Virus record (IMG/VR): IMGVR_UViG_3300020470_003436
Coordinates: 1 to 64,000 of that record
Direction: 5' to 3' (one strand)
DNA: 64,000 nucleotides
Origin: a virus
Below are positions 10,240 through 62,345 of the stretch, one piece after another. A program made the translations under genes and the position numbers. How positions within the stretch are numbered: the stretch's first letter is position 1; each line of letters begins with the position of its first letter. The notes beneath the pieces are model-generated. The model did no database searches. It was not told the DNA's origin and saw only the letters and a program-made list of their open reading frames with translations.

Positions 10240-13200
10240 ATGGTTAGTGCACGGTGGGGCGGGGTCAGAACAGATCCGTATAATCCCAATCCTAAAGATG
10301 CCGATTTAGACGGCATTGTTCAGGAGGGGACTTTTTTTGAACGCCCAGTAGGAACAAAATTTATAAGCGGAGCGATGGAGCTAATTTCTGGCGCACAGGG
10401 TAACAACCTTGAAGATATCGCTGGGCTTGTTCTTGTTGATGACGACGGAAACCCTGTTGATTATACCCCTACTTGGCGTGGCATGAGGTTGTCTGTTGGG
10501 CAGCAGCATGCTTCAGTTGGTCAAAGAACTACCGCTGTTGGAGATAGGGGAACTTTAGCTTCGGGTCCACTTACCCAAGAAGCGCCTAGTGTTAGAGCTG
10601 CTCCAGATGTTCGTGAAGGTAGAGGCATGCGTGGTCTTTTAGGGGCCTCCGTAGACGATCAATCGTTTGTTGAGCGCAGGGAAGAAAGGTTTCTAAACAG
10701 AATTGATGACGCTGCTTTGTGGTCACGTGTAAATAATCGTGGTGAGTCTCCTGAGAGCCTTGAAGAATTTTTCAAAGATAAAGAAACGCTTGATGCTGAT
10801 GGCGATCCGATTAATGTTGATGTTAGGTATATTAATAGGGCTGTTAACCGTCATGGAAAAGTACGTGACGCTTCTCGTCTAAGAGAGGAAAAACGACAAG
10901 CTGAATTAGCCGCAAGTAAGCTCCGTCAAGAAAAACAACAACGAGATTTTGCTATATCTAGACGTATTAGAAAAGGCGAATCAGTTGAGGAGATAGCTGA
11001 AGATTTGGGAATTAGCGCTCGTGAAGTTCGTTCAGCAAATAGGCGGATTAGTAGGATTAGAAGAAGAGAAAGAAATAACGCTGCACGGGAAAGAAGAGGT
11101 AGGGCTACTCGTAGCCTTACAGATGCGGATGCGTCTTCAGTATTTCCTGAAGATTTACGGAGAGATGTTGAAGCGTATAATTGGGTAGATCGTAGGGTGG
11201 AACTTGAAGAAAAAAACCAACGCACCGTAGAAGGTATAATAGGAACTTTTTGGTCTGGTAGAGATGGCGATGATGCGCCGTGGGACATTCTTAGTGATGA
11301 GAAGCTAAAAGACCATTTAAGAAAAATTTACCCTGATGCTTCTGAAGAAGATATTGACATTTCATTTGATTTTTATTCTGAGCAACTTAAAGAAGGAACC
11401 TTACAACCGAAGGACGTGTTTAAGCACGTTTTGGATGATGAAGGACGGGAAGAGTTTGCCCGTAACATGTTTTTGATCGGCAAACGAATTGATTTAGGTG
11501 AGGTTGAGGGCTCTGACGGAAGAATGTATCGTGTGGTAGCTATTCCCGAGTTAGAAGATCAAGCAAATCTGGATGAGACACAGTATTATGTTTCTGGGCG
11601 TTTCAATTATGAAGTTTTTGACAGTCTTTCAGGTGAGAAGGTTGCGGAGTATACTCCGCAGACGTTTGGCAATTATTCCGATTCGGGCTTTACACGGATT
11701 CTAGATTTGCCCGCTGCGGGATCTCCAGAGTTACACAACGATGAGTTAGGAGCTAATGCGGTAATTAAATTTGGTGATGACATTGAAGTTGATACACGAG
11801 GCATGGGCTTAGCTGATATATTTAATGGAAATGCTTTTATGTTTGCACAAAGTTTAGGTGCCGAAAGAGCTAGTATGGGTGCAGCAGATGATGGATTTGT
11901 TGTGTGGCCTCGTAAAGGATACCGAACAGATGAAGATGTGCCCCTAGTTGAGACTGTTAGCAGGGTTTCTGAGGTACTGGATCTTTATGATGAGTACCAA
12001 AGAAGAAAGCTTGATGGAATTGAAGTAAACCCAGAGATTCCAAGTGACAGGAAGCTAGTTTTGGCTGCGGCAATGATAGGTGACGATGAGAGGGCAGATA
12101 GGCTACGAGCTATGGTTTCTCCTTTAGATGGCTTGAAATCAACTATTGATGGCGAATACTTTAATGATGAGACTTTGAAATCCACGTTAGGAATTGAGCG
12201 AGGAGACATACCACAGTTGGGCGATTTTTTATTAGCGCTTGATCCTTCAGATTCGTCTAAACGAAACACATTGGCTTTTGTTGCTTTTAACCCAGATAAA
12301 AATGATACGGAGGTACAGCGTTTACTTGAGCAGGCGGTACCAGACCTTGAAGAAGATTTCCCAGAATTGAGGAGAGCGACTGACGCTATTATCCGTGACG
12401 GCACTAGCCCAAATTCGGTTTTAGAGTTACAAACTAATGATGGGGGTAGATTGTTTGATGGAGGAAGTATTGCTTTGGATAGTTTCTCGCCTGAAAAAGC
12501 TAAACAGAAAGCACGTTCTGGTAGGGCTGCACGAGAAACTGAAGTGCTTGAAAGTATGCAAGCGGGTTTTGATTCAGCAGACACTCCAAAAGACAAGATA
12601 AGGGAAGCAGAAGCGATGAGGCAATCAGTATCGGCACAACGCCGAGAGACCTTTAATGCGGCTGAAGAGGTTATGGAAAAACCGAGACGCCCTGCTGCAG
12701 GAACTCACATTGGTGGAGATCTTGATCTTGCTGATGGGTTAGATGAATCAGAGGTGGCTGCTGTTGATGAAGCTGCAGATATTATTAGTAACGTTATTTC
12801 TCTTCCCCCTAAACGTGGAACAGAGCGTCAATTATTTGTAACTCATACTGATCAACTTCCGGACGATCAGCTTTTGACCCTGCAACTTTCAGATGGAAAA
12901 CGTCCTCCAACCCGATTCAGTGCAGCAGAGTTATTAGGTGAGGAGCGATTTGACGCTGTTAAGGCGGGTGACCCGTTGACTCCTGAAGAACGTGACGATC
13001 TAGCTTTCTTCTCCATGGCTTATATTCAAAACGATTTGAACGCTAATGCAATGTACTTTGATCCTATAAGTGAGGGTCAAACAGGTATAATTTGGGTAAG
13101 GAATAGGCAGGCTGGTCGTTCTACGGTTCAGGATGAGATGTTAGGTGAGTTAGTTCTTCCAGATGGTCGGGTAACTTCCATTACTGCTGTTAGAGACATT

Positions 13201-16200: not shown

Positions 16201-17013
16201 GAGGTAGAAAATTATTTGGTATCTTTAGAATGGAACGTGCCTGCTGAAGGTGAACGTGGGCATGGTTTTGTTAGAGGCGTGCGTGATGATGGTTTATTTG
16301 ATATGGACCGAGATGAGTACACCGAGCATTTAGAAATGGTTCGTAAACATGTAAACGATAGGTACCAGTTTAGAGGCGGCGAAGAACATCCTCGTTACAG
16401 ACGAGAAAGACTAGAAAGAGGTTTAGAGCCTTATAATGAATTCGGAAGATCCTCTGGCTTACAAGAAGTTTGGGATAGAGATAATGAGTTACGAGGTGTG
16501 AGCTTTGATGAGAGGGGCAACATGACCACAACGAAACCTCCTCAACGGCGAGATAATTTGACGTTGACTTCCCAAGAGAAGTATAGAGGAGAGTATGAAA
16601 TTGGTGGGGGTTACCGTGAGAGATTGTATCCCGATCGTGATGAAGTTGAGAGGATGAAGGAAAGAAAAGCACGTAGGAAACGTGAAGCTGATCTTCGTGC
16701 GGAAAATCTTTTACGTAATCAGGATTATAGATCTAGGAACGGTCCTCCTGACCGAATGCGCAAACCGCCTCCTCCTTCTGTTGAGAGAACTGGGAGAGCT
16801 ACACGTGTAGCTGAAGAAATTGAAAATCTTAGCGAAGAGCAAAAAGAACAGTACGAAAAGATGACTAGACTGCGGGTAGATAGAAATATATGGGCAAGAA
16901 TGAAGAGCGGAGATTCTCTTGAAGAAATAGCTGCCTCTTTGGGCATGACAGAAGATGAAGTTCGTGCCGCCCAAGAACGGCTCCGTTCTGGGACATACGG
17001 ATTCACCAACTAG
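10240..17013 (+). CDS. giant multidomain virion-region protein with zincin motif
   Basis: 2257 residues, the largest gene here. The N-terminus has an actinophage-like Asp-rich motif (DADLDGIVQEGTFFERP). A helix-turn-helix-like segment near residue 250 (GESVEEIAEDLGISAREV) recurs at the C-terminus (GDSLEEIAASLGMTEDEV). A zinc-protease motif HEYVH lies at 989-993. Two Pro-rich linkers (about 1300-1400 and 1728-1845) flank a domain of roughly 340 residues that is then repeated (about 1409-1745 and 1850-2190; shared VIFSQWVEDAN and DRYQFRGGE). ER-x-GRATR occurs three times. The build recalls 'polyvalent' proteins thought to be injected with phage DNA; that is inference. Confidence 0.75.
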   Translation: MVSARWGGVRTDPYNPNPKDADLDGIVQEGTFFERPVGTKFISGAMELISGAQGNNLEDIAGLVLVDDDGNPVDYTPTWRGMRLSVGQQHASVGQRTTAVGDRGTLASGPLTQEAPSVRAAPDVREGRGMRGLLGASVDDQSFVERREERFLNRIDDAALWSRVNNRGESPESLEEFFKDKETLDADGDPINVDVRYINRAVNRHGKVRDASRLREEKRQAELAASKLRQEKQQRDFAISRRIRKGESVEEIAEDLGISAREVRSANRRISRIRRRERNNAARERRGRATRSLTDADASSVFPEDLRRDVEAYNWVDRRVELEEKNQRTVEGIIGTFWSGRDGDDAPWDILSDEKLKDHLRKIYPDASEEDIDISFDFYSEQLKEGTLQPKDVFKHVLDDEGREEFARNMFLIGKRIDLGEVEGSDGRMYRVVAIPELEDQANLDETQYYVSGRFNYEVFDSLSGEKVAEYTPQTFGNYSDSGFTRILDLPAAGSPELHNDELGANAVIKFGDDIEVDTRGMGLADIFNGNAFMFAQSLGAERASMGAADDGFVVWPRKGYRTDEDVPLVETVSRVSEVLDLYDEYQRRKLDGIEVNPEIPSDRKLVLAAAMIGDDERADRLRAMVSPLDGLKSTIDGEYFNDETLKSTLGIERGDIPQLGDFLLALDPSDSSKRNTLAFVAFNPDKNDTEVQRLLEQAVPDLEEDFPELRRATDAIIRDGTSPNSVLELQTNDGGRLFDGGSIALDSFSPEKAKQKARSGRAARETEVLESMQAGFDSADTPKDKIREAEAMRQSVSAQRRETFNAAEEVMEKPRRPAAGTHIGGDLDLADGLDESEVAAVDEAADIISNVISLPPKRGTERQLFVTHTDQLPDDQLLTLQLSDGKRPPTRFSAAELLGEERFDAVKAGDPLTPEERDDLAFFSMAYIQNDLNANAMYFDPISEGQTGIIWVRNRQAGRSTVQDEMLGELVLPDGRVTSITAVRDIIHEYVHRIDADVIDTDGVEGSGGFLSTKVADKLDPRVTEINNRIKNLEKLRRAGGISDEEFQTGLESLQAEIFTVQTELLQSIPETSNLSIEEIQDIIDPRSEKYDPAFLNAVAFRRALEDPDITLTPQEEAMTRLQLALLESPSTKDLLSRVTNSGDKDYYSSPEELLARGQSQWIAYEALKNSGVDPANYDNMSERIMRVADLYMESRRGPITPEMRQEFEELQDEILELWLDAKDELDDEQFSNLMLYLSYSSDNQHFTTEEMEALDGPMRDLLGEMGLLPDSEGDGLRLSPATVDVDVDSDSRLGMAARASPPPPPPPASEVRRDVDAPPPPPPPPPTPPSSPPPPPPPPGPPPRVERDVPPPPPPPPFDPVRDAIPDVADPPSIPPPPPPPRRSEPSIPPPPPPTAEDLQRLRPVDLTPEQTRLRDLGFAEDPDSIPRLDSADFERRRRALSENFDGIPESKLYGQNDEWLSGTQYYTDDGPILPPPVIFSQWVEDANIRDEGTRDARNLQHAVWADEKSPLINRGFDRHGGYHSTSNPTPEEMERRWSDAEVENYLVALEWNVPKEGETNYVFQQGKRDMDRYLAMDREEYIEHLEEIRKYVHDRYQFRGGEQHPRYRRARLEDGLEPFHEHGGSGMRDVWERDLRLRGIEVDENGKWIKGPPPRRRDSTELTSFEKYRGETEVTDNFRERFFPTRDFAELQAERKLRRQREVEKRTENLARHQDARERLGAPDRTPTPPPPSERTGRATRASGPPPRVEDAPPPPPPPGYSGARTPAPDSDGPPPPPPRVSGPPPRVERETPPPPPPPPPPGSVAPTPSGIPEADRRPSPPPPPRRRESRFPPPPAFDPVRDTIPEQTREERRLDDLGFSKDPDKIPRIGDRKYKLRERALSSAYDETNRPSGSHISAGTRDEWLDGTMYYTDAGPILPEPVIFSQWVEDANLREEGTRDAFGLQNAVFGNEKSPLISLRFNDRKRRLRDNPTSEDLTNWSDSEVENYLVSLEWNVPAEGERGHGFVRGVRDDGLFDMDRDEYTEHLEMVRKHVNDRYQFRGGEEHPRYRRERLERGLEPYNEFGRSSGLQEVWDRDNELRGVSFDERGNMTTTKPPQRRDNLTLTSQEKYRGEYEIGGGYRERLYPDRDEVERMKERKARRKREADLRAENLLRNQDYRSRNGPPDRMRKPPPPSVERTGRATRVAEEIENLSEEQKEQYEKMTRLRVDRNIWARMKSGDSLEEIAASLGMTEDEVRAAQERLRSGTYGFTN

Positions 17014-52603: not shown

Positions 52604-53023
52604 ATGGATTCTAAATACTCACGCATTGAAAGTTCGGTAAAACGTGTTTATCTGGATGACGGGTTCGCCCTTCCTTTAGATGAAAAGTCGTTTGATCAGG
52701 AAATAAGCACTTCTTCTGTGCCTGTTTTGGTTGATTTTTGGGCTAGCTGGTGTGGACCCTGTGAGTTTCAAGCCCCCATTCTTGACGAACTTGCCGCTAA
52801 GCACGCTGGTGCGTTAAAAGTTCGTAAAGTAGATGTAGAAAAAGAACCGTTTTTAGCCAATAGGTTTGATTTAACTGGAATTCCTTCCATGTTATTGTTC
52901 GTAAATGGGGAAGTTAAGGAAACTTTGGTAGGGGCTAGACCTTTAGAGATGTTAGAGAAAGATTTAGGGTCTTATTTGAGTATAGAAACAAAAGAAGCTA
53001 ACCATGACGAACACGTGGGATGA
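52604..53023 (+). CDS. thioredoxin
   Basis: 139 residues, about 30 longer than a typical thioredoxin because of an N-terminal extension. The active site WCGPC has C50 and C53, within VPVLVDFWASWCGPCEFQAP; the cis-Pro loop is TGIPSMLLFVNGE. It passes electrons to target disulfides in the cytoplasm; the phage ribonucleotide reductase and the peroxiredoxin at 54.2 kb are natural partners. First gene of a redox cluster. Confidence 0.92.
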   Translation: MDSKYSRIESSVKRVYLDDGFALPLDEKSFDQEISTSSVPVLVDFWASWCGPCEFQAPILDELAAKHAGALKVRKVDVEKEPFLANRFDLTGIPSMLLFVNGEVKETLVGARPLEMLEKDLGSYLSIETKEANHDEHVG

Positions 53024-53138
53024 TTTACCTATTGAAATGATGGGCGAAAGACCCGAATTATTTATAAAGAAAGAGAGGCGTGATGCAACCGAAAATGAAA
53101 ACCATCTCCAAACGCCTCGCCCCCTACAAGATAATTAA
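53004..53138 (+). CDS. 44-residue overlapping small ORF
   Basis: ATG at 53004, inside the end of the thioredoxin gene, opens 44 codons (MTNTWDDLPIEMMGERPELF at the start, then charged). It overlaps the next gene by 56 bases. Ribosome-binding sequence is weak (AAAGAAGC). The gap it fills would otherwise be empty between coupled genes, but the long overlap keeps confidence low. Confidence 0.35.
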   Translation: MTNTWDDLPIEMMGERPELFIKKERRDATENENHLQTPRPLQDN

Positions 53139-53331
53139 TAAGTTTACGCTGCATCCTCACTTGAATGGGATGACGTATATACAACATTTTGCTTTTTCCA
53201 CTAGACTCGGCTTAAGGCTTGGTAGACTAGTGTTTGTGGCCATCACTCATGCTATATTTCCATGGATTTGGAAAAGAGAGGTGTCCACTACTATAAACAG
53301 TTTATCTAGAGGATTTAGGGTGAAGCGTTAA
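53083..53331 (+). CDS. DUF6356-like small membrane-associated protein
   Basis: 82 residues from the ATG at 53083 after GAGAGG. The pattern FTLHPHLNGMTYIQHFAFST, then LGRLVFVAITHAIFPWIWKR and STTINSL, resembles the DUF6356 family as I remember it (HP...Y..H..., a hydrophobic helix with HA-x-x-P). One hydrophobic segment at about 45-65. It is directly followed by the ferredoxin gene, so it could have a role in an electron-transfer reaction; inference. Confidence 0.55.
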   Translation: MQPKMKTISKRLAPYKIINKFTLHPHLNGMTYIQHFAFSTRLGLRLGRLVFVAITHAIFPWIWKREVSTTINSLSRGFRVKR

Positions 53332-53610
53332 ATGTCAATTAAAGTTTGGATTGATCAAGATTTATGTACTGGTGATGGTCTTTGTGCCGAGATTTGTCCC
53401 CAGATTTTTGAGATGGCTGACGATGGTTTAGCCTATGTCAAGGAAGAATCATGGCCTACAATATACTCAAAAGATGGAAAAACTGCCCAAAATGAACCTA
53501 TTTTACAAATGGCTGAGGGAACAGCGGATGTTCCAGAAGAATTACTTGAAGCTGTAGTGGAATCAGCAGAGGAATGTCCGGGAGAATGCATCTTTATTGA
53601 TGTAGAATAG
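53332..53610 (+). CDS. ferredoxin, single 3Fe-4S type cluster
   Basis: 92 residues. Cysteines C12-x5-C18-x3-C22-P and C82-P fit the [3Fe-4S] (or convertible 4Fe-4S) ferredoxins common in Actinobacteria, where they feed cytochrome P450s and other oxygenases. The N-terminus IKVWIDQDLCTGDGLCAEIC is typical. A central insertion (KEESWPTIYSKDGKTAQNEP) makes it longer than the usual 65-70 residues. No P450 or reductase is visible here, so it would use host partners. It starts one base after the previous stop. Confidence 0.9.
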   Translation: MSIKVWIDQDLCTGDGLCAEICPQIFEMADDGLAYVKEESWPTIYSKDGKTAQNEPILQMAEGTADVPEELLEAVVESAEECPGECIFIDVE

Positions 53611-53615
53611 GTCTT

Positions 53616-53696
53616 GCTCCTCTCGTATAAGCTGATTACGCACAGTTGCCCTCTTCCGGCTGTGAAATCTAGGTTCAAGTCCTAGGAGGAGCGCCA
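53616..53696 (+). tRNA. tRNA-like cloverleaf with oversized anticodon loop
   Basis: All four stems pair perfectly: acceptor 53616-53622 with 53686-53692 (7 bp), D stem 53624-53627 with 53637-53640, anticodon stem 53641-53645 with 53660-53664, T stem 53669-53673 with 53681-53685 around TTCAAGT, then discriminator G and an encoded CCA (53694-53696). The anticodon loop has 14 bases instead of 7, only one base joins acceptor and D stem, and the D loop lacks GG. An inner CC/GG pairing would leave the seven-base loop CTCTTCC (anticodon CUU, Lys). Could be a non-standard tRNA, a decayed one or a remnant of an integration site. Confidence 0.5.
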
Positions 53697-53699
53697 CTC

Positions 53700-53728
53700 T
53701 TGACAAATGACTTATAATATGTTATAGT
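53700..53728 (+). promoter_or_regulatory. promoter after the tRNA-like element
   Basis: TTGACA (53700-53705), 17 bases, TATAGT (53723-53728). The ATG seven bases later (53736) stops after four codons; the ATG at 53747 has GGAGGT immediately upstream and is the likely start. Confidence 0.65.
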
Positions 53729-53746
53729 TATAGGTATGGAGGTAGT

Positions 53747-53905
53747 ATGACAGCGCAAGTACAGAGTGAGTTAATTAGTAAGATAGAGGAGCTTTTGAAA
53801 CTTACTGCCGATAGAAGCATGTTTTCGGCAGAGGAAATTCAGGACACTATGTTGGATCTTTATTCAGATATAGTAAGTCTTGACTTCCCTACTGAAATAG
53901 AGTAG
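53747..53905 (+). CDS. 52-residue acidic helical protein
   Basis: 52 residues (MTAQVQSELISKIEELLKLT at the start, ending DFPTEIE). Mostly helical and acidic. GGAGGT precedes it closely (four bases). Resembles the 34499 coiled-coil protein in its KIEELLKLTADRSMF segment. The -35 and part of the spacer of the next promoter lie inside its 3' end. Confidence 0.6.
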   Translation: MTAQVQSELISKIEELLKLTADRSMFSAEEIQDTMLDLYSDIVSLDFPTEIE

Positions 53906-53908
53906 AAT
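53880..53908 (+). promoter_or_regulatory. leaderless promoter of the 53915 gene
   Basis: TTGACT (53880-53885), 17 bases, TAGAAT (53903-53908), six bases, ATG at 53915. Confidence 0.7.
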
Positions 53909-53914
53909 ATAGTT

Positions 53915-54154
53915 ATGAGCATTCCAGAATCATTAGAAGCACAACGCATGACCATGTGGGGTTATGCTATAAACGAGAACGCATCAGCGTTAGCTGCTGG
54001 CATTGACGCATATGATGCCGCATTAGATGCTGTAGATAACAGTGATTTGTCGGGATCAAAGAAAGATGAAGCCGACGAATGGCTTGAAAATGCTAAAGCA
54101 GACGCTTATACATTTCGGGCAAACGCTCAAAACAGAGACGTAACAGATATATAA
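53915..54154 (+). CDS. small acidic helical protein
   Basis: 79 residues, rich in Ala and Asp (ALAAGIDAYDAALDAVDNSD, KKDEADEWLENAKADAYTFR). Predicted helical bundle. Not recognised. Transcribed from a leaderless promoter, with the peroxiredoxin gene 21 bases downstream in the same direction. Confidence 0.65.
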   Translation: MSIPESLEAQRMTMWGYAINENASALAAGIDAYDAALDAVDNSDLSGSKKDEADEWLENAKADAYTFRANAQNRDVTDI

Positions 54155-54175
54155 ACACACAATAAAGGAGCAATA

Positions 54176-54700
54176 ATGCTAGGTGTTAACGAAACGTTCC
54201 CCAACTTCTCACTTACAGGAGTTGATGCGGACAACAAATTCACAACAGTAAGTAACAACGATATGGCCCTGTCTCTTGAAGGAACATGGTCAGTATTTTA
54301 CTTTTATCCCAAGGACTTTACATTTATCTGCCCTACAGAGATAGCAGAGATGGACCGCCTAGTTGACGAAGGCGTAAATGTGGTTGGTTTCAGTGGGGAC
54401 AATGAACATTGTAAGCTAAATTGGAAAAAATCAAATAATCTTATCAAAGATATCCGACATCCATTAGTTGCTGACACTGGTTTAAGCCTTTCACATGAAC
54501 TAGGTATCGTAGATGAAAACGCAGGCGTTTGTCTCCGTGCAACGTATATCGTTAACCCTATGAACCGTGTAGTGTCAGTAAGTGTTAACGAATTAGACAC
54601 TGGACGCAACGTAGACGAAGTTATTCGCACGCTAAATGCCCTACAAGCAGATGGTTTAACGCCTTGCGCTTGGAACGTTGGCGACGAATTTGTCGGCTAA
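54176..54700 (+). CDS. AhpC/2-Cys peroxiredoxin
   Basis: 174 residues. It reduces peroxides: peroxidatic C52 in YPKDFTFICPTEIAEM and resolving C164 in TPCAWNVGDEF, in the AhpC arrangement. Other family marks are GFSGDNEHCKLNW (usual S-x-D-x3-H-x-AW) and AGVCLRATYIVNP. AAGGAG precedes the ATG. With thioredoxin nearby it forms a possible peroxide-defence pair protecting the infected cell or the radical enzyme. Confidence 0.92.
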   Translation: MLGVNETFPNFSLTGVDADNKFTTVSNNDMALSLEGTWSVFYFYPKDFTFICPTEIAEMDRLVDEGVNVVGFSGDNEHCKLNWKKSNNLIKDIRHPLVADTGLSLSHELGIVDENAGVCLRATYIVNPMNRVVSVSVNELDTGRNVDEVIRTLNALQADGLTPCAWNVGDEFVG

Positions 54701-55893: not shown

Positions 55894-56007
55894 AGGACCA
55901 TCGGGCGGAAACACTAACCACGTTACCAAAAAGGTCATAATCCCCTATACAAGCATACACCCCTATAGCTAGGGACACCATAAGCATATAGAAGCCTAAC
56001 ACACCCC

Positions 56008-56036
56008 TTGACTCAGCCCAATATATGCTTTACAAT
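56008..56036 (+). promoter_or_regulatory. whiB promoter
   Basis: TTGACT (56008-56013), 17 bases, TACAAT (56031-56036). The leader is about 55 bases. A TAGGGACACCAT copy lies 26 bases upstream of the -35. Confidence 0.65.
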
Positions 56037-56097
56037 AGGGTAAAAGGAATACTACACACACAATAAAAGCACACTACCCCCCAACTAAAGTATTCCA

Positions 56098-56484
56098 ATG
56101 ACACACACAAACGAACCACCCCAACGCCTAACCAAAACAAACCAAACCGATATACCACACACAAACCCCGAAAAACCCCCGCCCTCCCCTGCTTTGCCTC
56201 CGCATTGGTCGGATGATGCTGCTTGTGCTGGTAAGGCTGAGAAGATGTTTCCTAAGGCTCATAAGGATTTGAGTTATATTAGTGATGCTCGTAGGATTTG
56301 TAGGCAGTGCCCGGTTCGTCAGGATTGTTTGGAGTATGCCCTGTCGTTTCCTGCTTCTGATTTGCATGGGGTGTGGGCTGGTTTGACGCCCCGCCAGTTG
56401 GCTGCTGAGGGGCAGCGTCGTGGTGTGAAGCCCCGTCGTTTTACTTTGGCTCAGGTTTGGTCGCAGTATAATTCTAGGCATTAG
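56098..56484 (+). CDS. WhiB-like iron-sulfur transcription factor
   Basis: 128 residues. Four Cys typical of the Wbl [4Fe-4S] cluster: one in DDAACAGKAEKMF, then CRQCPVRQDCLEYAL; the signature turn follows (GVWAGLTPRQL, usually G[VI]WGG) and a basic DNA-binding tail (GQRRGVKPRRF). Wbl proteins are confined to Actinobacteria and their phages and act with sigma A. About 40 N-terminal residues are Thr/Pro/Asn-rich and encoded by A/C-rich DNA; at about 56190 the base composition flips to G/T-rich within the gene. No Shine-Dalgarno precedes the ATG, so the start is uncertain. Confidence 0.9.
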   Translation: MTHTNEPPQRLTKTNQTDIPHTNPEKPPPSPALPPHWSDDAACAGKAEKMFPKAHKDLSYISDARRICRQCPVRQDCLEYALSFPASDLHGVWAGLTPRQLAAEGQRRGVKPRRFTLAQVWSQYNSRH

Positions 56485-56501
56485 GGTGTATTGCTGTGTG
56501 C

Positions 56502-56524
56502 TATACTATGTTTGGGGACACCAT
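56502..56524 (+). promoter_or_regulatory. -10 box followed by repeat operator, before the terminase gene
   Basis: TATACT (56502-56507) with a TGGGGACACCAT copy at 56513-56524, around the expected transcript start. The -35 is not clear. Confidence 0.4.
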
Positions 56525-56566
56525 TGGGGTTTGTAGAGCATAGTTTATTTAAGAAACGGGACTATT

Positions 56567-57223
56567 ATGGCAGATAATTTACCTAAGGAATTCTTGGCGG
56601 AGAGGGATGCTCGTATCTTTTCTTTGAAAAAGTCGGGGCTTTCTAATTCGGATATTGCGAAGCGTTTTGATATGACTGCGTCTGCTGTTGCGGCGGCTAC
56701 TCGGCGTCAGTTGAATCGGTTAAATTCTGAGGCGTTTTTGGCGTATCCTGAAGTTTTGCGGCTTGAGTTGGAAAGGTTAGATGAGATGCAGAAGTCTTTG
56801 TGGCCTTTGACGCAGTTTAGGCGTGAGGAGTTGGAGGATGGTTCTACTATTACGGTGGAGCCTGATCAGCGTGCGGTTCAGACTGTGCTTGGTATTATGG
56901 ATAGGCGTGCTCGTTTGCTCGGCATGAACGTGGAACGTGTTGATGTGGCGTTGAATACTTTAGGTGAAGCTACGGTTGTTGATGCTAGGTCTACGTTGGC
57001 TGGTGCTGATGCGAAAGCGTTGCCTGCGGGTGCTGATCCTAAGGAAGAATCTATGCAGTTATTGGAACTTATGGGCCAGTCCGGGGTTTTGGATTCCACA
57101 GTCTTGGGGCAAATCTTAGGTAACGTTAGGGACACCATTGAGGTTTCTAGCGAAATAGTTGAAGAAGAAGACGGGACTATTATAGTTTCGGTTGATGAAA
57201 GTGAGATAGACAATGTCAAGTGA
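56567..57223 (+). CDS. terminase small subunit-like protein
   Basis: 218 residues. The N-terminus is a helix-turn-helix (RIFSLKKSGLSNSDIAKRFD, MTASAVAAATRRQLNRLNSE). It is followed by the segment EVLRLELERLDEMQKSLWPL common in actinophage small terminases, then RAVQTVLGIMDRRARLLGM. The acidic C-terminus may contact the large subunit. It would select phage DNA for packaging, so the packaging site may be nearby. The large subunit is not in the window. One copy of the 14-bp motif lies in its coding sequence at 57127. Confidence 0.65.
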   Translation: MADNLPKEFLAERDARIFSLKKSGLSNSDIAKRFDMTASAVAAATRRQLNRLNSEAFLAYPEVLRLELERLDEMQKSLWPLTQFRREELEDGSTITVEPDQRAVQTVLGIMDRRARLLGMNVERVDVALNTLGEATVVDARSTLAGADAKALPAGADPKEESMQLLELMGQSGVLDSTVLGQILGNVRDTIEVSSEIVEEEDGTIIVSVDESEIDNVK

Positions 57224-57545
57224 ATACTTAAAGGAAACTTTGCGTTCCAATGAGATTAAGGGTAAACAGTTAGATAAGGCGATTTCCGGTGCGTTATTGT
57301 CGGATGAAGTTGTGGAGCCTGTTTCGGAGACACGTGATAAGCAGGTGCTGATTCGGGTGTCGGAGTCCCAGCGTGACCAGTGGGCTAAGGCGGCTGATAA
57401 GGATGGTTTGTCGGTTTCCGAGTGGCTTCGTTCTATGGCGGATTTCCGGTATCGTGAGATTTTTGAATGCTTGCATAAGATTGAGTCTCGTCGGGTGTAT
57501 CCGTGGTCTGAACATTGTATGGATTGTGGCGCTCGCCTGCGCTAG
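57213..57545 (+). CDS. ribbon-helix-helix-like protein with C-terminal CxxC
   Basis: 110 residues. Residues about 43-85 resemble a ribbon-helix-helix/MobA-like DNA-binding unit (KQVLIRVSESQRDQWAKAAD, KDGLSVSEWLRSMADFRYRE). The end has HCMDCGARLR, half of a zinc site, with an additional upstream Cys/His. It overlaps the terminase gene by 11 bases. Its stop codon TAG is the first three bases of a TAGGGACACCAT repeat, so it could be autoregulated; inference. Confidence 0.65.
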   Translation: MSSEYLKETLRSNEIKGKQLDKAISGALLSDEVVEPVSETRDKQVLIRVSESQRDQWAKAADKDGLSVSEWLRSMADFRYREIFECLHKIESRRVYPWSEHCMDCGARLR

Positions 57546-58110
57546 GGACACCATAGACTATAGTTAGAACTACAGTAATGTGGGTTTTAGGGTAGTGATA
57601 CGGTTAGTGGTTGGGCTGTGTTGCTTTTCAAGTCTGACGTATAGTCAGTAGGGTGGGTTTACTGCAGTTCTGATCCCGCTGCCGGATTTGCAAAAAGTGG
57701 CCAGTTTTGATTGTTTTTAAGAGCTCCCAGGCTTTCCCGGGGAGAGGTAAAAAGTGGTATGTTTTTGCGTTTTTTGGACTTTGGCAGCACTAGGGTCCAA
57801 ATAAAAAAAGTGGTATAGTTTTTTCTTTTTCTTGAGCTACCCGGGCAGCTGTCTTCATAAAAAGTGGTATAGTTTTATCGTTTTTTGATTTTCCATCCCT
57901 GAGCTTCCAGGCTTGCTGCCGGATTTGCAAAAAAGGGGTGGTTTTTTCGTTTTTTGAAGAGCTCTGATCCATTTCATACTTACGGTCTTCTACAAAAATG
58001 AAAAAGGGGCCTACTTTTGTTCAAAATCCCCCCGGAAGCTGCTGAGCTCTCCGGGTGTCATTTACAAAAGTGACCCACTTTTTACGTTTTTTGCTTTTAC
58101 GCAGCTGAGC
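57546..58110 (+). repeat. noncoding region with tandem AAAAAGTGG iteron-like repeats
   Basis: No credible gene for 565 bases. Seven copies of a roughly 29-base element, AAAAAGTGGTATAGTTTT then about three bases and GTTTTTTG, begin near 57692, 57749, 57805, 57859, 57929, 58001 and 58066, spaced 54-72 bases. Between them is a second, GC-rich element with cores GAGCTCCCAGGCTT, GCTGCCGGATTTGC or CCCGGGCAGCTG. Two more partial copies occur near 58404 and 58459 at the start of the next gene. Candidates: replication origin iterons, or a regulator-binding array. Confidence 0.7.
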
Positions 58111-58260
58111 TTAGAATCTACTTCGTAGTCGGAAGATTTCTCTTTCAAGTCCGTCTGACCATTGTAGATCATTTACGTTGCGGTATTTAGATGGAAGGCT
58201 GTGGCCTTTTGGGGCTTGTTTCTTTCCACCGAATACTAATTTCTTAGCTAATTTTTTCAT
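58111..58260 (-). CDS. small basic protein on the minus strand
   Basis: 49 residues from the ATG at 58260, preceded by a perfect AGGAGG site eight bases away (minus strand). Lys-rich N-terminus (MKKLAKKLVFGGKKQAPKGH) and an Arg-rich end. The strong ribosome site makes it credible despite its size. It sits between the repeat array and the intergenic region with a TAGGGACACCATTG copy. Confidence 0.65.
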   Translation of the reverse strand: MKKLAKKLVFGGKKQAPKGHSLPSKYRNVNDLQWSDGLEREIFRLRSRF

Positions 58261-58427
58261 TTCGCCTCCTTTTGTGGCAGTTGGTAATTTGTACATCAAC
58301 TATTTAGTTTAGGGACACCATTGACTCTTTTTGCGATACTATAAGGTGATTGGTGTCACACCTGTTGCGTCCTAAGCTGGGCAGCTATATACTAAGTTTA
58401 TATAAAAGTGCATAGTTTTTTACATTT

Positions 58428-58676
58428 ATGCCGTCCGCCCGGCAGCTGAGAAAAGAGATAAAAGTGCGTGATTTTTCAAACTTTAACAAAACGGGAAGAC
58501 CGCCGAAACGGGCTGATGAAACACAAGACTTTGTTGGCATGAGTTTCCGAGTGTCACCTAAACTAAAGAATCTTTTACTTGAGATTTCCAAAGGGTATGA
58601 CATATCTATGACTGAACTCCTGTTGATGATGGCCCTGAAAGAGGCCGGTAAAGAATCGTTGGACGATTTAGATTAA
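58428..58676 (+). CDS. ribbon-helix-helix-like DNA-binding protein
   Basis: 82 residues if the ATG at 58428 is used; a GTG at 58464 is an alternative, because residues 1-11 are encoded by a copy of the GC-rich repeat element. The basic N-terminus (FNKTGRPPKRADE) precedes an RHH core (GMSFRVSPKLKNLLLEISKG, YDISMTELLLMMALKEAGKE). Such proteins bind DNA as dimers and often control their own promoter or partition. Two bases separate it from the next RHH gene. Confidence 0.65.
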   Translation: MPSARQLRKEIKVRDFSNFNKTGRPPKRADETQDFVGMSFRVSPKLKNLLLEISKGYDISMTELLLMMALKEAGKESLDDLD

Positions 58677-58678
58677 AA

Positions 58679-59020
58679 ATGGATGACAAGAACAAGATAG
58701 TACGAGTACATATCTCGTTGCCACTTGGTGTAAAAATGGTTTGCCAAGAGGCCGCTAAAGAATTAGGCATATCTACGTCAGAAGTCATCGCTCTAGCCGC
58801 TAGGGAGTACGCTAGGGACACCATTGGACTCCCTAGCAAAGCGCCCGAGGCTCCTATCCCTTCCGTTGCCGACGTGCTTCGCGATTATGTTGACGGCGTA
58901 GGTGCTCGTCTAATTGGACCCTGTGGAGAAGCGTGGTCACAGTGCGCATATGATCAAGAAACACCCGAACGTGTCGGGTCAATGGAGTTCTGCGGTTCTT
59001 GTGGGGTCCGGACTGGCTAG
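58679..59020 (+). CDS. CopG-like protein with C-terminal zinc motif
   Basis: 113 residues. The RHH-like N-terminus is IVRVHISLPLGVKMVCQEAA, then KELGISTSEVIALAAREYAR. The C-terminus has CGEAWSQC and CGSCGVRTG, a four-Cys zinc site. It contains a TAGGGACACCATTG copy in its coding region (58813). Its stop overlaps the convergent gene on the other strand (shared CTAG). Probably acts with the preceding RHH protein; inference. Confidence 0.65.
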   Translation: MDDKNKIVRVHISLPLGVKMVCQEAAKELGISTSEVIALAAREYARDTIGLPSKAPEAPIPSVADVLRDYVDGVGARLIGPCGEAWSQCAYDQETPERVGSMEFCGSCGVRTG

Positions 59021-59345: not shown

Positions 59346-59708
59346 TTACTCCTGTAACCATTCGTCCATCTCCTTTTTAGCTTTTGTTTCCTCGTAGTAA
59401 GTTTCTAAAAACTGCTCCACTTTTTCAGCGTTACGGAAGATGAGCGTAAGGTCGTGATACTTTTTCCCTAAAGGGTTATGCCCATTATGCCACGAGGATA
59501 GGGAGCAACCTTTTATAGCCTGTTTACAAGTCTCCATGCCATAGTTCTTAATGGCTATAGATATCTTCTTGCTTCTGGCTTCGTCTAAGATAGTGTTTCC
59601 GTTCTTCTCAAACACTTCTATCCAGTAGTTAAACAATTCTTCTATCTCTGACGCAGTCACACCGTTTAAATGTGGTTCCACATCTCCGAACAAGTTTATT
59701 TCAGACAA
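59346..59708 (-). CDS. replication-associated C-terminal-domain-like protein
   Basis: 120 residues, TTG start at 59708 after AAGGAGGG. The pattern YWIEVFEKNGNTILDEARSK, then AIKNYGMETCKQAIKGCSLS, SWHNGHNPLGKKY and LIFRNAEKVEQFLETYY resembles the C-terminal domain of phage replication initiators and helicase loaders (W..G.N..G..Y..L..IFR). The N-terminal DNA-binding half is absent. A TTGACC-N18-TAGAAT promoter is visible upstream on the minus strand. Function inferred only. Confidence 0.55.
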   Translation of the reverse strand: MSEINLFGDVEPHLNGVTASEIEELFNYWIEVFEKNGNTILDEARSKKISIAIKNYGMETCKQAIKGCSLSSWHNGHNPLGKKYHDLTLIFRNAEKVEQFLETYYEETKAKKEMDEWLQE

Positions 59709-59828: not shown

Positions 59829-61496
59829 CTATCTGGCGAGATGGAGTGTGAACATCTCTCTCCATCGCTCCAGTATTCGTGGATTAGGCTTATCGCCTCG
59901 CTGGAGTCCCCTAAGGTACTCAATAGCACCCTCTGGTTCATACTCCATGTGTATCTTGTGCTTGAGGGCGAACTTGGCACATTCTAGTTCGTCCGACCAC
60001 CCTTGACCGTGATAGCCTTCCTTGTAGCACATGCCGTCTGTTATCCAGATGACTGGTGCTTTAGCGTTCTGGCGCTTCTCAATAGCGTATTCTGCTACTG
60101 ATAGGTCACACAAGTTTCCACCGTTTACTCTTGGAATATCGTCTACGATTTTACCCTTGTCTCCGAGTATCCAAGTATTAGGGTTCTCATGGCTTCCACC
60201 AGAGTATCCGATTATGAGACAGCCCTTGCTGGCTAGCATCATATCTTTTACCTGTTCTTTTGAGAGACTCATAGAACCAGACATGTCAATGATGACAACT
60301 CCACCAGATGCTTTGACGTACTTGTCAAAGATTCTTTTATCTGGGTCCGTAAGGAACCTGTGCATGCGTCGTGGGTTCTTGCCCATGTTGGCAGGAACTC
60401 TACGCTTGCCTATAGCACCCTGTACGGTAAGTGAGCGAGTAGTAGGTCCAATTTTGACTGGTTGCCATTTTGCTTGTCCACCGTGTTCGTGAACCTTATC
60501 TCGCAAGATGTTCTTTGCAGTCTGTTGGATACCTGCTCTATCCACTTCTTGTGTCTCATCTTCTAGGTCTGATGGGTCACCTTCTGCTTTGCCATCACCC
60601 TTCATGGCTTCACCAGAGTTCTCACCCTGTTCTGCTCCGTCACCGTTCTCGTCTGATGCTCCACCAGCGAGTTCGCCTTGACCCTCAACTTCTTCGCCTT
60701 CGCCTTCTTCGCCTTCTCCGGCTTCGTCAGAATCTTCTTGTTCATTGTAGCCAGTAGGAGGAGGCATCTCTGCTACTGCTTGGAGTAGCATAGCGAGTGC
60801 GATGGTGTGATTCATACCCACGATGGTTTCCAACTGAACATAGTTGTTTCCATCGTAGTATTCGTTTAGCGCCGTGCTACCCATGACTGCTAATGCGTCT
60901 TGTGTAGGTGTTGAGTTTACTCCCCACTTGCGCTTTTTAATTTCACGCACTTGTGACTTCATAAACTTTTTGACTTCTTTAGCGAGGTCACGGAGCGCTG
61001 ATGCCCAGTCAGGATTAACGCTTCGTACTCCAGAGATTAGTGGAGTAAGCCCACCAGTGAAGCAGGAAGCACCGACAGCGTATACTGCTGATGCCCAGTC
61101 CTCTGCTTGAGCGATAATCTTACCGTCATGCTTGTCTCCACCAGTGACCATAGACTTCATAGGGAAGCCTAGTTCATTAGCGATGAAGTTTACTCTGGCT
61201 TCTTCTGCCGAGCGAATAGCCTGCTCTGGAGTAAGTTCCGTAATGTATGGTGTAAGGTCTTGTGGGCTAATCTTAACGTGGATTTGCTCATGCGCCCTAA
61301 TCGCTTGTGACAATTCAGAATCGTCTAGGGGTACTCGCATAACACGACCAGATACGGTAATGAATGGTTCCCCTCTTACTGCTGGAGCATGCCCTACGTC
61401 CCAACCACCAGAATTTCTGATGTCGTTACGCCGGAATACTTCTGGCATAGGTCTGTTTCTAATTGTTGTTTCTTTTATTTGTTGTTCTACTGACAT
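59829..61496 (-). CDS. VWA-domain protein with N-terminal metallopeptidase motif
   Basis: 555 residues. HEQIH at 69-73 is an HExxH zinc motif, with E98/E99 a possible third ligand. A low-complexity Glu/Gly linker spans about 250-320. The C-terminal von Willebrand A domain has a MIDAS D404-x-S406-x-S408 (VVIIDMSGSMS) and WITDGM further on. This order matches DUF2201-type proteins (metallopeptidase-like plus VWA-like) that pair with MoxR AAA+ ATPases. Such a ATPase is encoded just upstream. Together they probably remodel or insert cofactors into a target protein; the target is unknown. Start: AGAGGAG site. Confidence 0.82.
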   Translation of the reverse strand: MSVEQQIKETTIRNRPMPEVFRRNDIRNSGGWDVGHAPAVRGEPFITVSGRVMRVPLDDSELSQAIRAHEQIHVKISPQDLTPYITELTPEQAIRSAEEARVNFIANELGFPMKSMVTGGDKHDGKIIAQAEDWASAVYAVGASCFTGGLTPLISGVRSVNPDWASALRDLAKEVKKFMKSQVREIKKRKWGVNSTPTQDALAVMGSTALNEYYDGNNYVQLETIVGMNHTIALAMLLQAVAEMPPPTGYNEQEDSDEAGEGEEGEGEEVEGQGELAGGASDENGDGAEQGENSGEAMKGDGKAEGDPSDLEDETQEVDRAGIQQTAKNILRDKVHEHGGQAKWQPVKIGPTTRSLTVQGAIGKRRVPANMGKNPRRMHRFLTDPDKRIFDKYVKASGGVVIIDMSGSMSLSKEQVKDMMLASKGCLIIGYSGGSHENPNTWILGDKGKIVDDIPRVNGGNLCDLSVAEYAIEKRQNAKAPVIWITDGMCYKEGYHGQGWSDELECAKFALKHKIHMEYEPEGAIEYLRGLQRGDKPNPRILERWREMFTLHLAR

Positions 61497-61640: not shown

Positions 61641-62345
61641 CTATTCCGTTCGGAAGGTATCTATTTTGATTGCTTCCAAGAAGGCGTTTGCCCTCTCACC
61701 AAGAATCACCTTAGAGGCTTCCTGCTCTCCGATTTTACGAGAGAGTTGGTTAAGGGATTGAAACAGTCGCAATGACATGCGCTCACTACCAGCGTCAGCC
61801 ATACGAGATGCATAGTCTCTCCAGTGTGGAGGAAGCGTCTCTAGTGCTTCTGGGTGTGGACGGTCAATGCGTAGTCGCACTGGGAACCTGTCTACTAGTG
61901 CAGTAGGTAGTTCCTCAACATGTTCTACGTTAGTAGTCATTATGACTTTGAAACCCTGTTGGGGAGTATGAACTTCACCAGTGATAGGGTGTTCCCATGT
62001 AGCAGACCCATCAGAGTCAGTCATGTTAAGCAGGGTAGCGAATACGTCACCACCAGCCTTGTCAATTTCGTCAATGACAAGTCTATGTCCTGCCCATGCT
62101 TTAATAGCGGAACCTTCTACATAGGAGAAACCCCCATCTGCGGAAGGTAGGAACCCACCAGTAACGTCCATGTTAGTCATGTCGTCCGTGCAGGTTAGTC
62201 GGTATGCTTTGCCACCTTCAGGTTGGTAGGCGTGCATCGCCGTATATGTTTTGCCAGTTCCAGGAGGTCCAAAAAGAATCACCCTGTCTATTCCGGCTTC
62301 TAAAATGCTGTTGAATGTATCCCAACAGTTGCTTTCGGTACTCAT
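61641..62345 (-). CDS. MoxR-type AAA+ ATPase
   Basis: 234 residues, a minimal AAA+ module. Walker A GPPGTGKT (26-33), Walker B HRLVIDEID (D91, E92), sensor 1 IMTTNVEHVEELPTALVDRF with an arginine nearby. The segment LTCTDDMTNMDVTGGFLPS between Walker A and B is typical of MoxR/CbbQ/CobS-like proteins. These use ATP to remodel partners together with a VWA protein, which here is the next gene. AGAGGAG precedes the ATG. Confidence 0.85.
   Translation of the reverse strand: MSTESNCWDTFNSILEAGIDRVILFGPPGTGKTYTAMHAYQPEGGKAYRLTCTDDMTNMDVTGGFLPSADGGFSYVEGSAIKAWAGHRLVIDEIDKAGGDVFATLLNMTDSDGSATWEHPITGEVHTPQQGFKVIMTTNVEHVEELPTALVDRFPVRLRIDRPHPEALETLPPHWRDYASRMADAGSERMSLRLFQSLNQLSRKIGEQEASKVILGERANAFLEAIKIDTFRTE

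Follow-up and report, generated by a model that had tools for sequence, protein, structure and literature searches.

Same-facing, dispersed DNA sites that accompany a small RHH-like protein in uncultured phages: a possible stoperator-like control system

Introduction

What purpose is served by a short asymmetric DNA sequence that a phage carries in many copies, always facing the same way, within one part of its genome? This question is raised by a 64,000-nt stretch of viral DNA, positions 1-64,000 of IMG/VR record IMGVR_UViG_3300020470_003436 (called the window hereafter; the complete record has 71,064 bp), in which six copies of a 14-bp site lie on the plus strand between positions 55970 and 58826. 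A first-pass annotation had likened these copies to the stoperators of Cluster A mycobacteriophages, had proposed a silencing or immunity system, and had listed WhiB and three RHH-like proteins encoded among the copies as candidate binders. We have followed the sites through the whole record and through related viral records, and the sequence comparisons indicate a single orientation, restriction to one region, conservation of a bipartite form, and co-occurrence with one of the RHH-like proteins, RHH2. These features point to an undescribed phage control system, stoperator-related in style; the explanation that we favour, with a confidence somewhat short of even, is an RHH2-bound, stoperator-like silencer of early-direction transcription.

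Sites in the window and their conservation

The six sites of the window are as follows.

Site 1, 55970..55983, plus strand: TAGGGACACCATAA, intergenic, upstream of the WhiB gene
Site 2, 56513..56526, plus strand: TGGGGACACCATTG, intergenic, between the WhiB gene and the HTH gene
Site 3, 57127..57140, plus strand: exact 14-mer, within the HTH gene (56567-57223)
Site 4, 57543..57556, plus strand: TAGGGACACCATAG, whose TAG is the stop codon of RHH1 (57213-57545)
Site 5, 58310..58323, plus strand: exact 14-mer, in a non-coding stretch upstream of RHH2
Site 6, 58813..58826, plus strand: exact 14-mer, within the RHH3 gene (58679-59020)

The 14-mer TAGGGACACCATTG is present exactly at three of the six positions (57127, 58310 and 58813), with one mismatch at 56513 and 57543 and with two at 55970, and the six copies on one strand that had been reported were thus all found, together with their contexts between genes, inside two genes (the HTH gene and RHH3) and over one stop codon (that of RHH1). 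When up to three mismatches were allowed, the window held 14 matches against 5.2 expected in shuffles, and none of 100 shuffles reached 14, in agreement with the earlier view that the repetition exceeds chance. The 8-mer GGGACACC is confined to these six sites in the 64-kb window, with a count of zero on the minus strand. In the whole 71,064-bp record, the core GGGACACCAT occurs eight times forward (the six window sites plus 64357 and 68570) and never in reverse, and the same core read backwards, used as a control, gave 0 and 1. The site at 68.57 kb is overlapped by a degenerate unit, CAGGGACGCCATAG, with an 11-bp period.

Several other repeats were noticed around the sites. Inverted repeats flank some of the window sites when inspected by eye. 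The non-coding tract at 57690-58110, and more weakly up to 58480, carries AAAAAGTGG-TATAG-TTTTT repeats at intervals of about 50-65 bp, with GC-rich pieces, GAGCTCCCAGGC for example, between them. At 12390-12480 and 16650-16760 of locus L001 (about 64.4 and 68.7 kb of the record), AGCCCCG/CGGGACT units are repeated and might fold into hairpins, and AG[TC]CCCG units also come after many sites in G003, L028, L030 and G018.

Related viral contigs were fetched by homology to the HTH protein (56567-57223), and the same site was found in the nearest relatives with forward/opposite counts of 5/0 (G001), 9/1 (G002) and 11/0 (G003), the sole opposite match overlapping a forward site. Eight further records (G010-G017) have 3-10 sites each and none opposite; G010, G015 and G017 are near-identical around the sites and count as about one. 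Keeping to one strand throughout the record and being kept in related records, the sites show neither equal numbers in the two orientations nor a lack of conservation, the two computable outcomes that the first-pass annotation had named as speaking against its proposal. A logo of 67 sites gives a near-invariant 14-bp core, TAGG[GTA]AC[AG]CCAT[TA]G, followed after some 8-10 bp by a T-rich/TAG stretch that is weaker, and in several genomes the site forms doublets with an 11-bp period. The site within the HTH gene shifts to other codons in relatives and in L004 even lies in another frame (V-G-T-P-L-G versus R-D-T-I-E), so that selection at this site acts on DNA and not on protein. Four further pattern matches in viral contigs (L014-L017) were single-copy, with no repeated motif.

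Association of the motif with RHH2

The genes that have to be considered as sources of a binding protein, and their neighbours, are listed here.

56098..56484, plus strand: WhiB, which also occurs in phages without RHH2 and the motif
56567..57223, plus strand: HTH protein of a family of several hundred, with only weak structural likeness to small terminases
57213..57545, plus strand: RHH1, a NikA-like RHH protein, also in records without RHH2 and the motif
58428..58676, plus strand: RHH2, an 82-amino-acid RHH-like protein with a GRP arm, the best candidate binder
58679..59020, plus strand: RHH3, RHH-like, with a C-terminal CxxC pair, a possible partner of RHH2
59346..59708, minus strand: O-like replication-initiation domain; relatives have a site near its start
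59829..61496, minus strand: large conserved gene of the early block, with a weak VWA match
61641..62345, minus strand: MoxR-type AAA ATPase of the early block

The predicted determinant of the motif is RHH2, and not WhiB, the HTH protein or RHH1, because these three are found in phages that have neither RHH2 nor the motif; they are present in many motif-free loci. Accordingly, of the binders suggested earlier, an RHH-type protein beside the sites remains likely in the form of RHH2, while WhiB and RHH1 drop out. Among the loci fetched with the HTH protein, RHH2 and RHH3 were seen only with the motif and in L081-L084. The repeats of L084 were at first put down to coding chance, and a search of its whole record (G018) then showed that it has a real polar motif of its own, ACGGTGAAGATTTC with variants. 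The 69.5-kb record has this motif 12 times forward and never in reverse, and no copy lies beyond the first 17.3 kb. Read on the other strand, this motif resembles that of the window by eye in both of its parts (CGAAATCGACACCGTAAGGTTATTAGAG versus TAGGGACACCATTGAGGTTTATTAGAAG).

Whole records were next searched with an RHH2 profile. This gave homologues in G021, G026, G033, G019 and G005, in which a repeat search that assumes no sequence (strand-biased 12-mers, one mismatch allowed) detected a single-orientation ACGGTGGCG-type motif with counts of 9/0, 12/0, 8/0, 15/0 and 11/0, respectively. Such a search always yields some strand-biased families in large records, including chance families of 5-8 members, and in G033 the motif is equalled in number by an unrelated family; what sets the motifs of the five records apart is a shared GGTGG core, which was not imposed, and clustering upstream of RHH2. 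A second RHH2 scan gave 38 loci, and in 27 of these (L151-L177) the homologue is a distant one. Most RHH2 loci with a few kb upstream have a ACGGTGGCGGAA-type motif on the strand of RHH2, mainly upstream of it. The 27 loci are not independent tests, since they include near-duplicates (L152/L153, L157/L160/L162, L176/L177 and L167/L171) and parts of records already used (L156 from G026, L165 from G021). Merely one to three copies were seen in L169 and L171, and the few core matches in L176/L177 are downstream or reversed; in five loci with RHH2 near the left contig end (L158, L159, L163, L168 and L170) no motif was found downstream. No ACGGTGGCG array was found in four HTH-positive, RHH2-negative records of 50-90 kb (G020, G047, G049 and G036). 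On these comparisons, the motif and RHH2 appear to occur together almost always.

This association bears on the possibility that the sites are pac-like and that the HTH protein recognises them for packaging in the manner of a small terminase. A polar arrangement would fit packaging in one direction, and the HTH protein has weak Foldseek matches to small terminases (6ejq, probability 0.75, E 0.26); yet the motif goes with RHH2 and not with the HTH protein, and the large-terminase gene of G003 lies on the opposite strand at a distance of about 64 kb, so we regard packaging as highly unlikely.

Site structure and recognition

Phages of this group have about 5 to 15 same-facing copies in the region ahead of the RHH2 gene, dispersed over about 9-21 kb, and the site is bipartite, with a shared GGTG-centred core and a lineage-specific half. 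When the early block (MoxR, VWA-like and O-like genes) sets the reading direction, the site of the window's clade consists of TCTAATAAACC and then CAATGGTGTCCCTA, and those of other lineages consist of the lineage-specific half and then ACGGTGG[CT]GGAA. The halves are TCTAATAAACC in the window's clade and G018, TTCTTCT in G019 and L153, CTCAAG or GCAAG in G026, G033 and G005, GATCCTATGTTTG in L160 and ACAACTCTTTT in L176. The GGTGG element had also raised the thought of Chi-like recombination sites, which was dropped in view of sites that are long, bipartite, lineage-specific, regional and linked to RHH2.

The GRP arm of RHH2 is invariant, and its predicted contact strand exists in two forms: G-x-S-x-[KR] accompanies the core ATGGTGTCC in the window's clade, and T-x-T-x-[KR] accompanies ACGGTGGCG, or a core much like it, in other lineages. 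The corresponding strand of RHH3 is variable. Because the strand class of RHH2 matches the core class while that of RHH3 varies, we infer that, of the two, RHH2 is more likely to read the core, and that RHH3 may read the variable half. In the structural model of RHH2 (mean pLDDT 73) an extended segment precedes two helices, and structure comparison ranks RHH proteins highest, with no single match reaching significance; Pfam RHH gave no match for RHH2.

The same observations help to judge whether the sites serve a host protein or some other purpose, with RHH2 merely a linked neighbour. RHH2 and the sites share a region, linkage alone could account for part of the co-occurrence, and binding by RHH2 is a prediction from sequence. 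On the other side, site cores and the predicted contact strand of RHH2 change together, and RHH2-negative relatives lack any such motif, which makes this alternative quite improbable in our view.

Orientation and genome context

In G018, G019, G021, G005, G026 and G033, the sites lie upstream of RHH2 and share its strand. In the window's clade the RHH operon has the reverse orientation to the VWA, MoxR and O-like genes, and it is with respect to these genes that the sites keep their orientation. When only genes backed by a diverged homologue in another locus were counted, 35 in-gene sites were sense and 5 antisense outside the window's clade, and inside it the corresponding numbers were 9 and 18; because of this reversal, it seems to be the genome region and not the local gene that sets the orientation. 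An RNA element was also considered and rejected, as no Rfam match was found in the region and the sites are both sense and antisense.

L002, L003 and L025 share an orthologous site that overlaps the -10 element of a TTGAC[AG]-N17-TATGGT promoter upstream of the O-like gene; as judged from these predicted elements, this is the one clear operator-like case. The idea that the site itself is a -10 element was rejected, because a good -35 element at the right spacing was found in three orthologous sites only and no sigma70-like enrichment was seen. Promoters were also noticed at 12020-19065 of L001 (64-71 kb of the record), where many small plus-strand genes each stand behind a TTGACA-N17-TATAGT or TATGGT promoter, several of these promoters containing an embedded TGTCACACC.

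A replication role, in which RHH2 and RHH3 would bind the polar sites and steer the loading of a helicase, the use of an origin or the passage of forks, deserves attention here, since the polarity goes with the genome and not with the gene. In G019, G021, G026, G033 and G005, RHH2 and RHH3 follow an O-like initiation domain and a helicase-loader-like protein, the genes often overlapping, and different lineages again have a site inside the O-like gene, close to its start. G018, G013, G026 and G033 have DnaA-box-like clusters beside some of their sites, whereas the window's record and others have none, and at least 10 sites over 9-21 kb, many of them in genes, are unlike a usual origin; we consider this explanation improbable. 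The clusters themselves consist of TTNTCCACA units with 11-12-bp spacing (L101 from G018, L102 from G013, L123/L124 from G026 and L114 from G033), and are far above expectation in G018 and G013. A different thing altogether is an array of ACGGTTCTCT with 36-bp spacing inside an open frame beside the HTH/RHH1 genes of other phages (L005:12113-12617, L008, L009 and L010), which we rejected as a part of the site system.

Restriction to one region also raises the possibility that an RHH protein organises or anchors this part of the genome, as MatP does at matS and plasmid RHH proteins do at centromeres. The matS sites are dispersed and confined to one domain, as are the sites here, and the candidate binder is RHH-like. 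Such sites are usually palindromic or form compact arrays, the polarity would have no obvious use, and ParA (PF13614, AAA_31 only) was not found in 18 records, most of which may be incomplete; an architectural or segregation role is thus very unlikely. A tyrosine integrase (PF00589) was likewise not found (serine integrases were not searched, and the records may be incomplete). The immunity function proposed in the first-pass annotation is therefore unsupported.

The remaining surroundings concern the phage itself. Its host is likely actinobacterial, because the capsid is nearest to those of Gordonia and Brevibacterium phages and WhiB is present. Among phages of an annotated collection, the HTH and VWA-like proteins had no match, and RHH2 had one weak match, in a Streptococcus phage (E 0.1). 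Just ahead of the control region, at 52604-54700, there are genes that by eye seem thioredoxin-like (52604), ferredoxin-like (53332) and peroxiredoxin-like (54176).

Proposed function

In the silencer explanation, the sites would be dispersed, asymmetric, bipartite targets of a phage-encoded RHH-type complex, with RHH2 as its core component, possibly together with RHH3. RHH2 would bind 5-15 same-facing sites over the early/replication region and block RNA polymerases moving in the early direction, at one promoter but mostly during elongation, including read-through into convergent genes; the purpose would be shut-off or autoregulation of early genes. We are led to this binding, block and purpose because the sites are polar and mostly sense to early genes where no inversion has occurred, because one of them overlaps a promoter, and because a small RHH-type gene ends the early block. 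The polarity kept in inverted or convergent stretches is compatible with a block of early read-through, and equally with a replication or architectural role.

Several observations weigh against a silencer. The predominance of antisense sites within the window's clade differs from what a simple local stoperator predicts, and no enrichment of sites near sigma70-like promoters was found. L151 is a clear exception to the association, having RHH2 and no recognisable motif. The contact-strand argument rests on two classes that are also two lineages, and the replication genes beside RHH2 suggest another role. A rather doubtful variant is that the two adjacent RHH-like proteins occupy the bipartite one-way sites of the early region, RHH2 at the core and RHH3 at the lineage-specific half, and thereby impose direction, regardless of gene orientation, on a process at the DNA level; the loading of a helicase, the passage of forks and the organisation of a domain are examples. 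That the genome-polar cis elements of this variant would form a previously undescribed class is likewise a thought to which we attach limited belief.

Comparison with known systems

Cluster A stoperators belong to temperate phages, are bound by an HTH immunity repressor acting as a monomer, and are oriented by transcription (PMC6550527, PMC9283540). The present sites are like them in being asymmetric 13-14-bp sites, many per genome and in one orientation, in that few overlap promoters and most do not, and in that the site sequence differs between related phages together with the repressor, or here the candidate binder (PMC6550527, PMC9283540); many asymmetric sites of one sequence per genome were found here as well. 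They are unlike them in that the candidate binder is RHH-like, the sites lie in one region, and the polarity follows the genome, with sites mostly sense outside the window's clade and mostly antisense within it. Neither a tyrosine integrase (PF00589) nor ParA (PF13614) was found, in a search without serine integrases and in records that may be incomplete. Because orientation by local transcription and temperate genes were not observed, we do not claim membership in the Cluster A stoperator family. The earlier description as stoperator-like thus holds for dispersed, asymmetric, one-way and conserved sites with an RHH protein adjacent, and only in part for orientation by local transcription.

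Start-associated sequences of Cluster K phages are similar in being asymmetric, 13 bp long, located in the non-structural half of the genome and nearly always in one orientation, and they lie 3-7 bp before start codons (PMC3203893). We rejected this identity for the present sites, as a nearby ATG with an open reading frame of at least 40 amino acids was found at just 13 of 110 and 2 of 67 sites. The RHH repressors and RHH centromere-binding proteins Arc, CopG, omega and ParG are also small RHH proteins on repeated DNA sites, these being palindromes or compact arrays (PMC5016525), whereas single polar bipartite sites are here dispersed over about 9-21 kb; a ParA-type ATPase with the RHH protein, as in plasmid-type partition, was not found in a search with AAA_31 only.

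Dispersed one-way repressor sites have been known mainly from L5-type mycobacteriophages, where an HTH immunity repressor binds them, and here a much smaller RHH-like protein goes with a comparable set of sites in many uncultured phages. For environmental phage genomes, a simple rule for the annotation of non-coding control sites follows: find RHH2 and search the DNA upstream of it. The site sequence diverges by lineage with orientation and layout kept, which provides a natural series for protein-site co-evolution, and with this system one can test cleanly which process the polarity serves: transcription, replication or the organisation of the genome.

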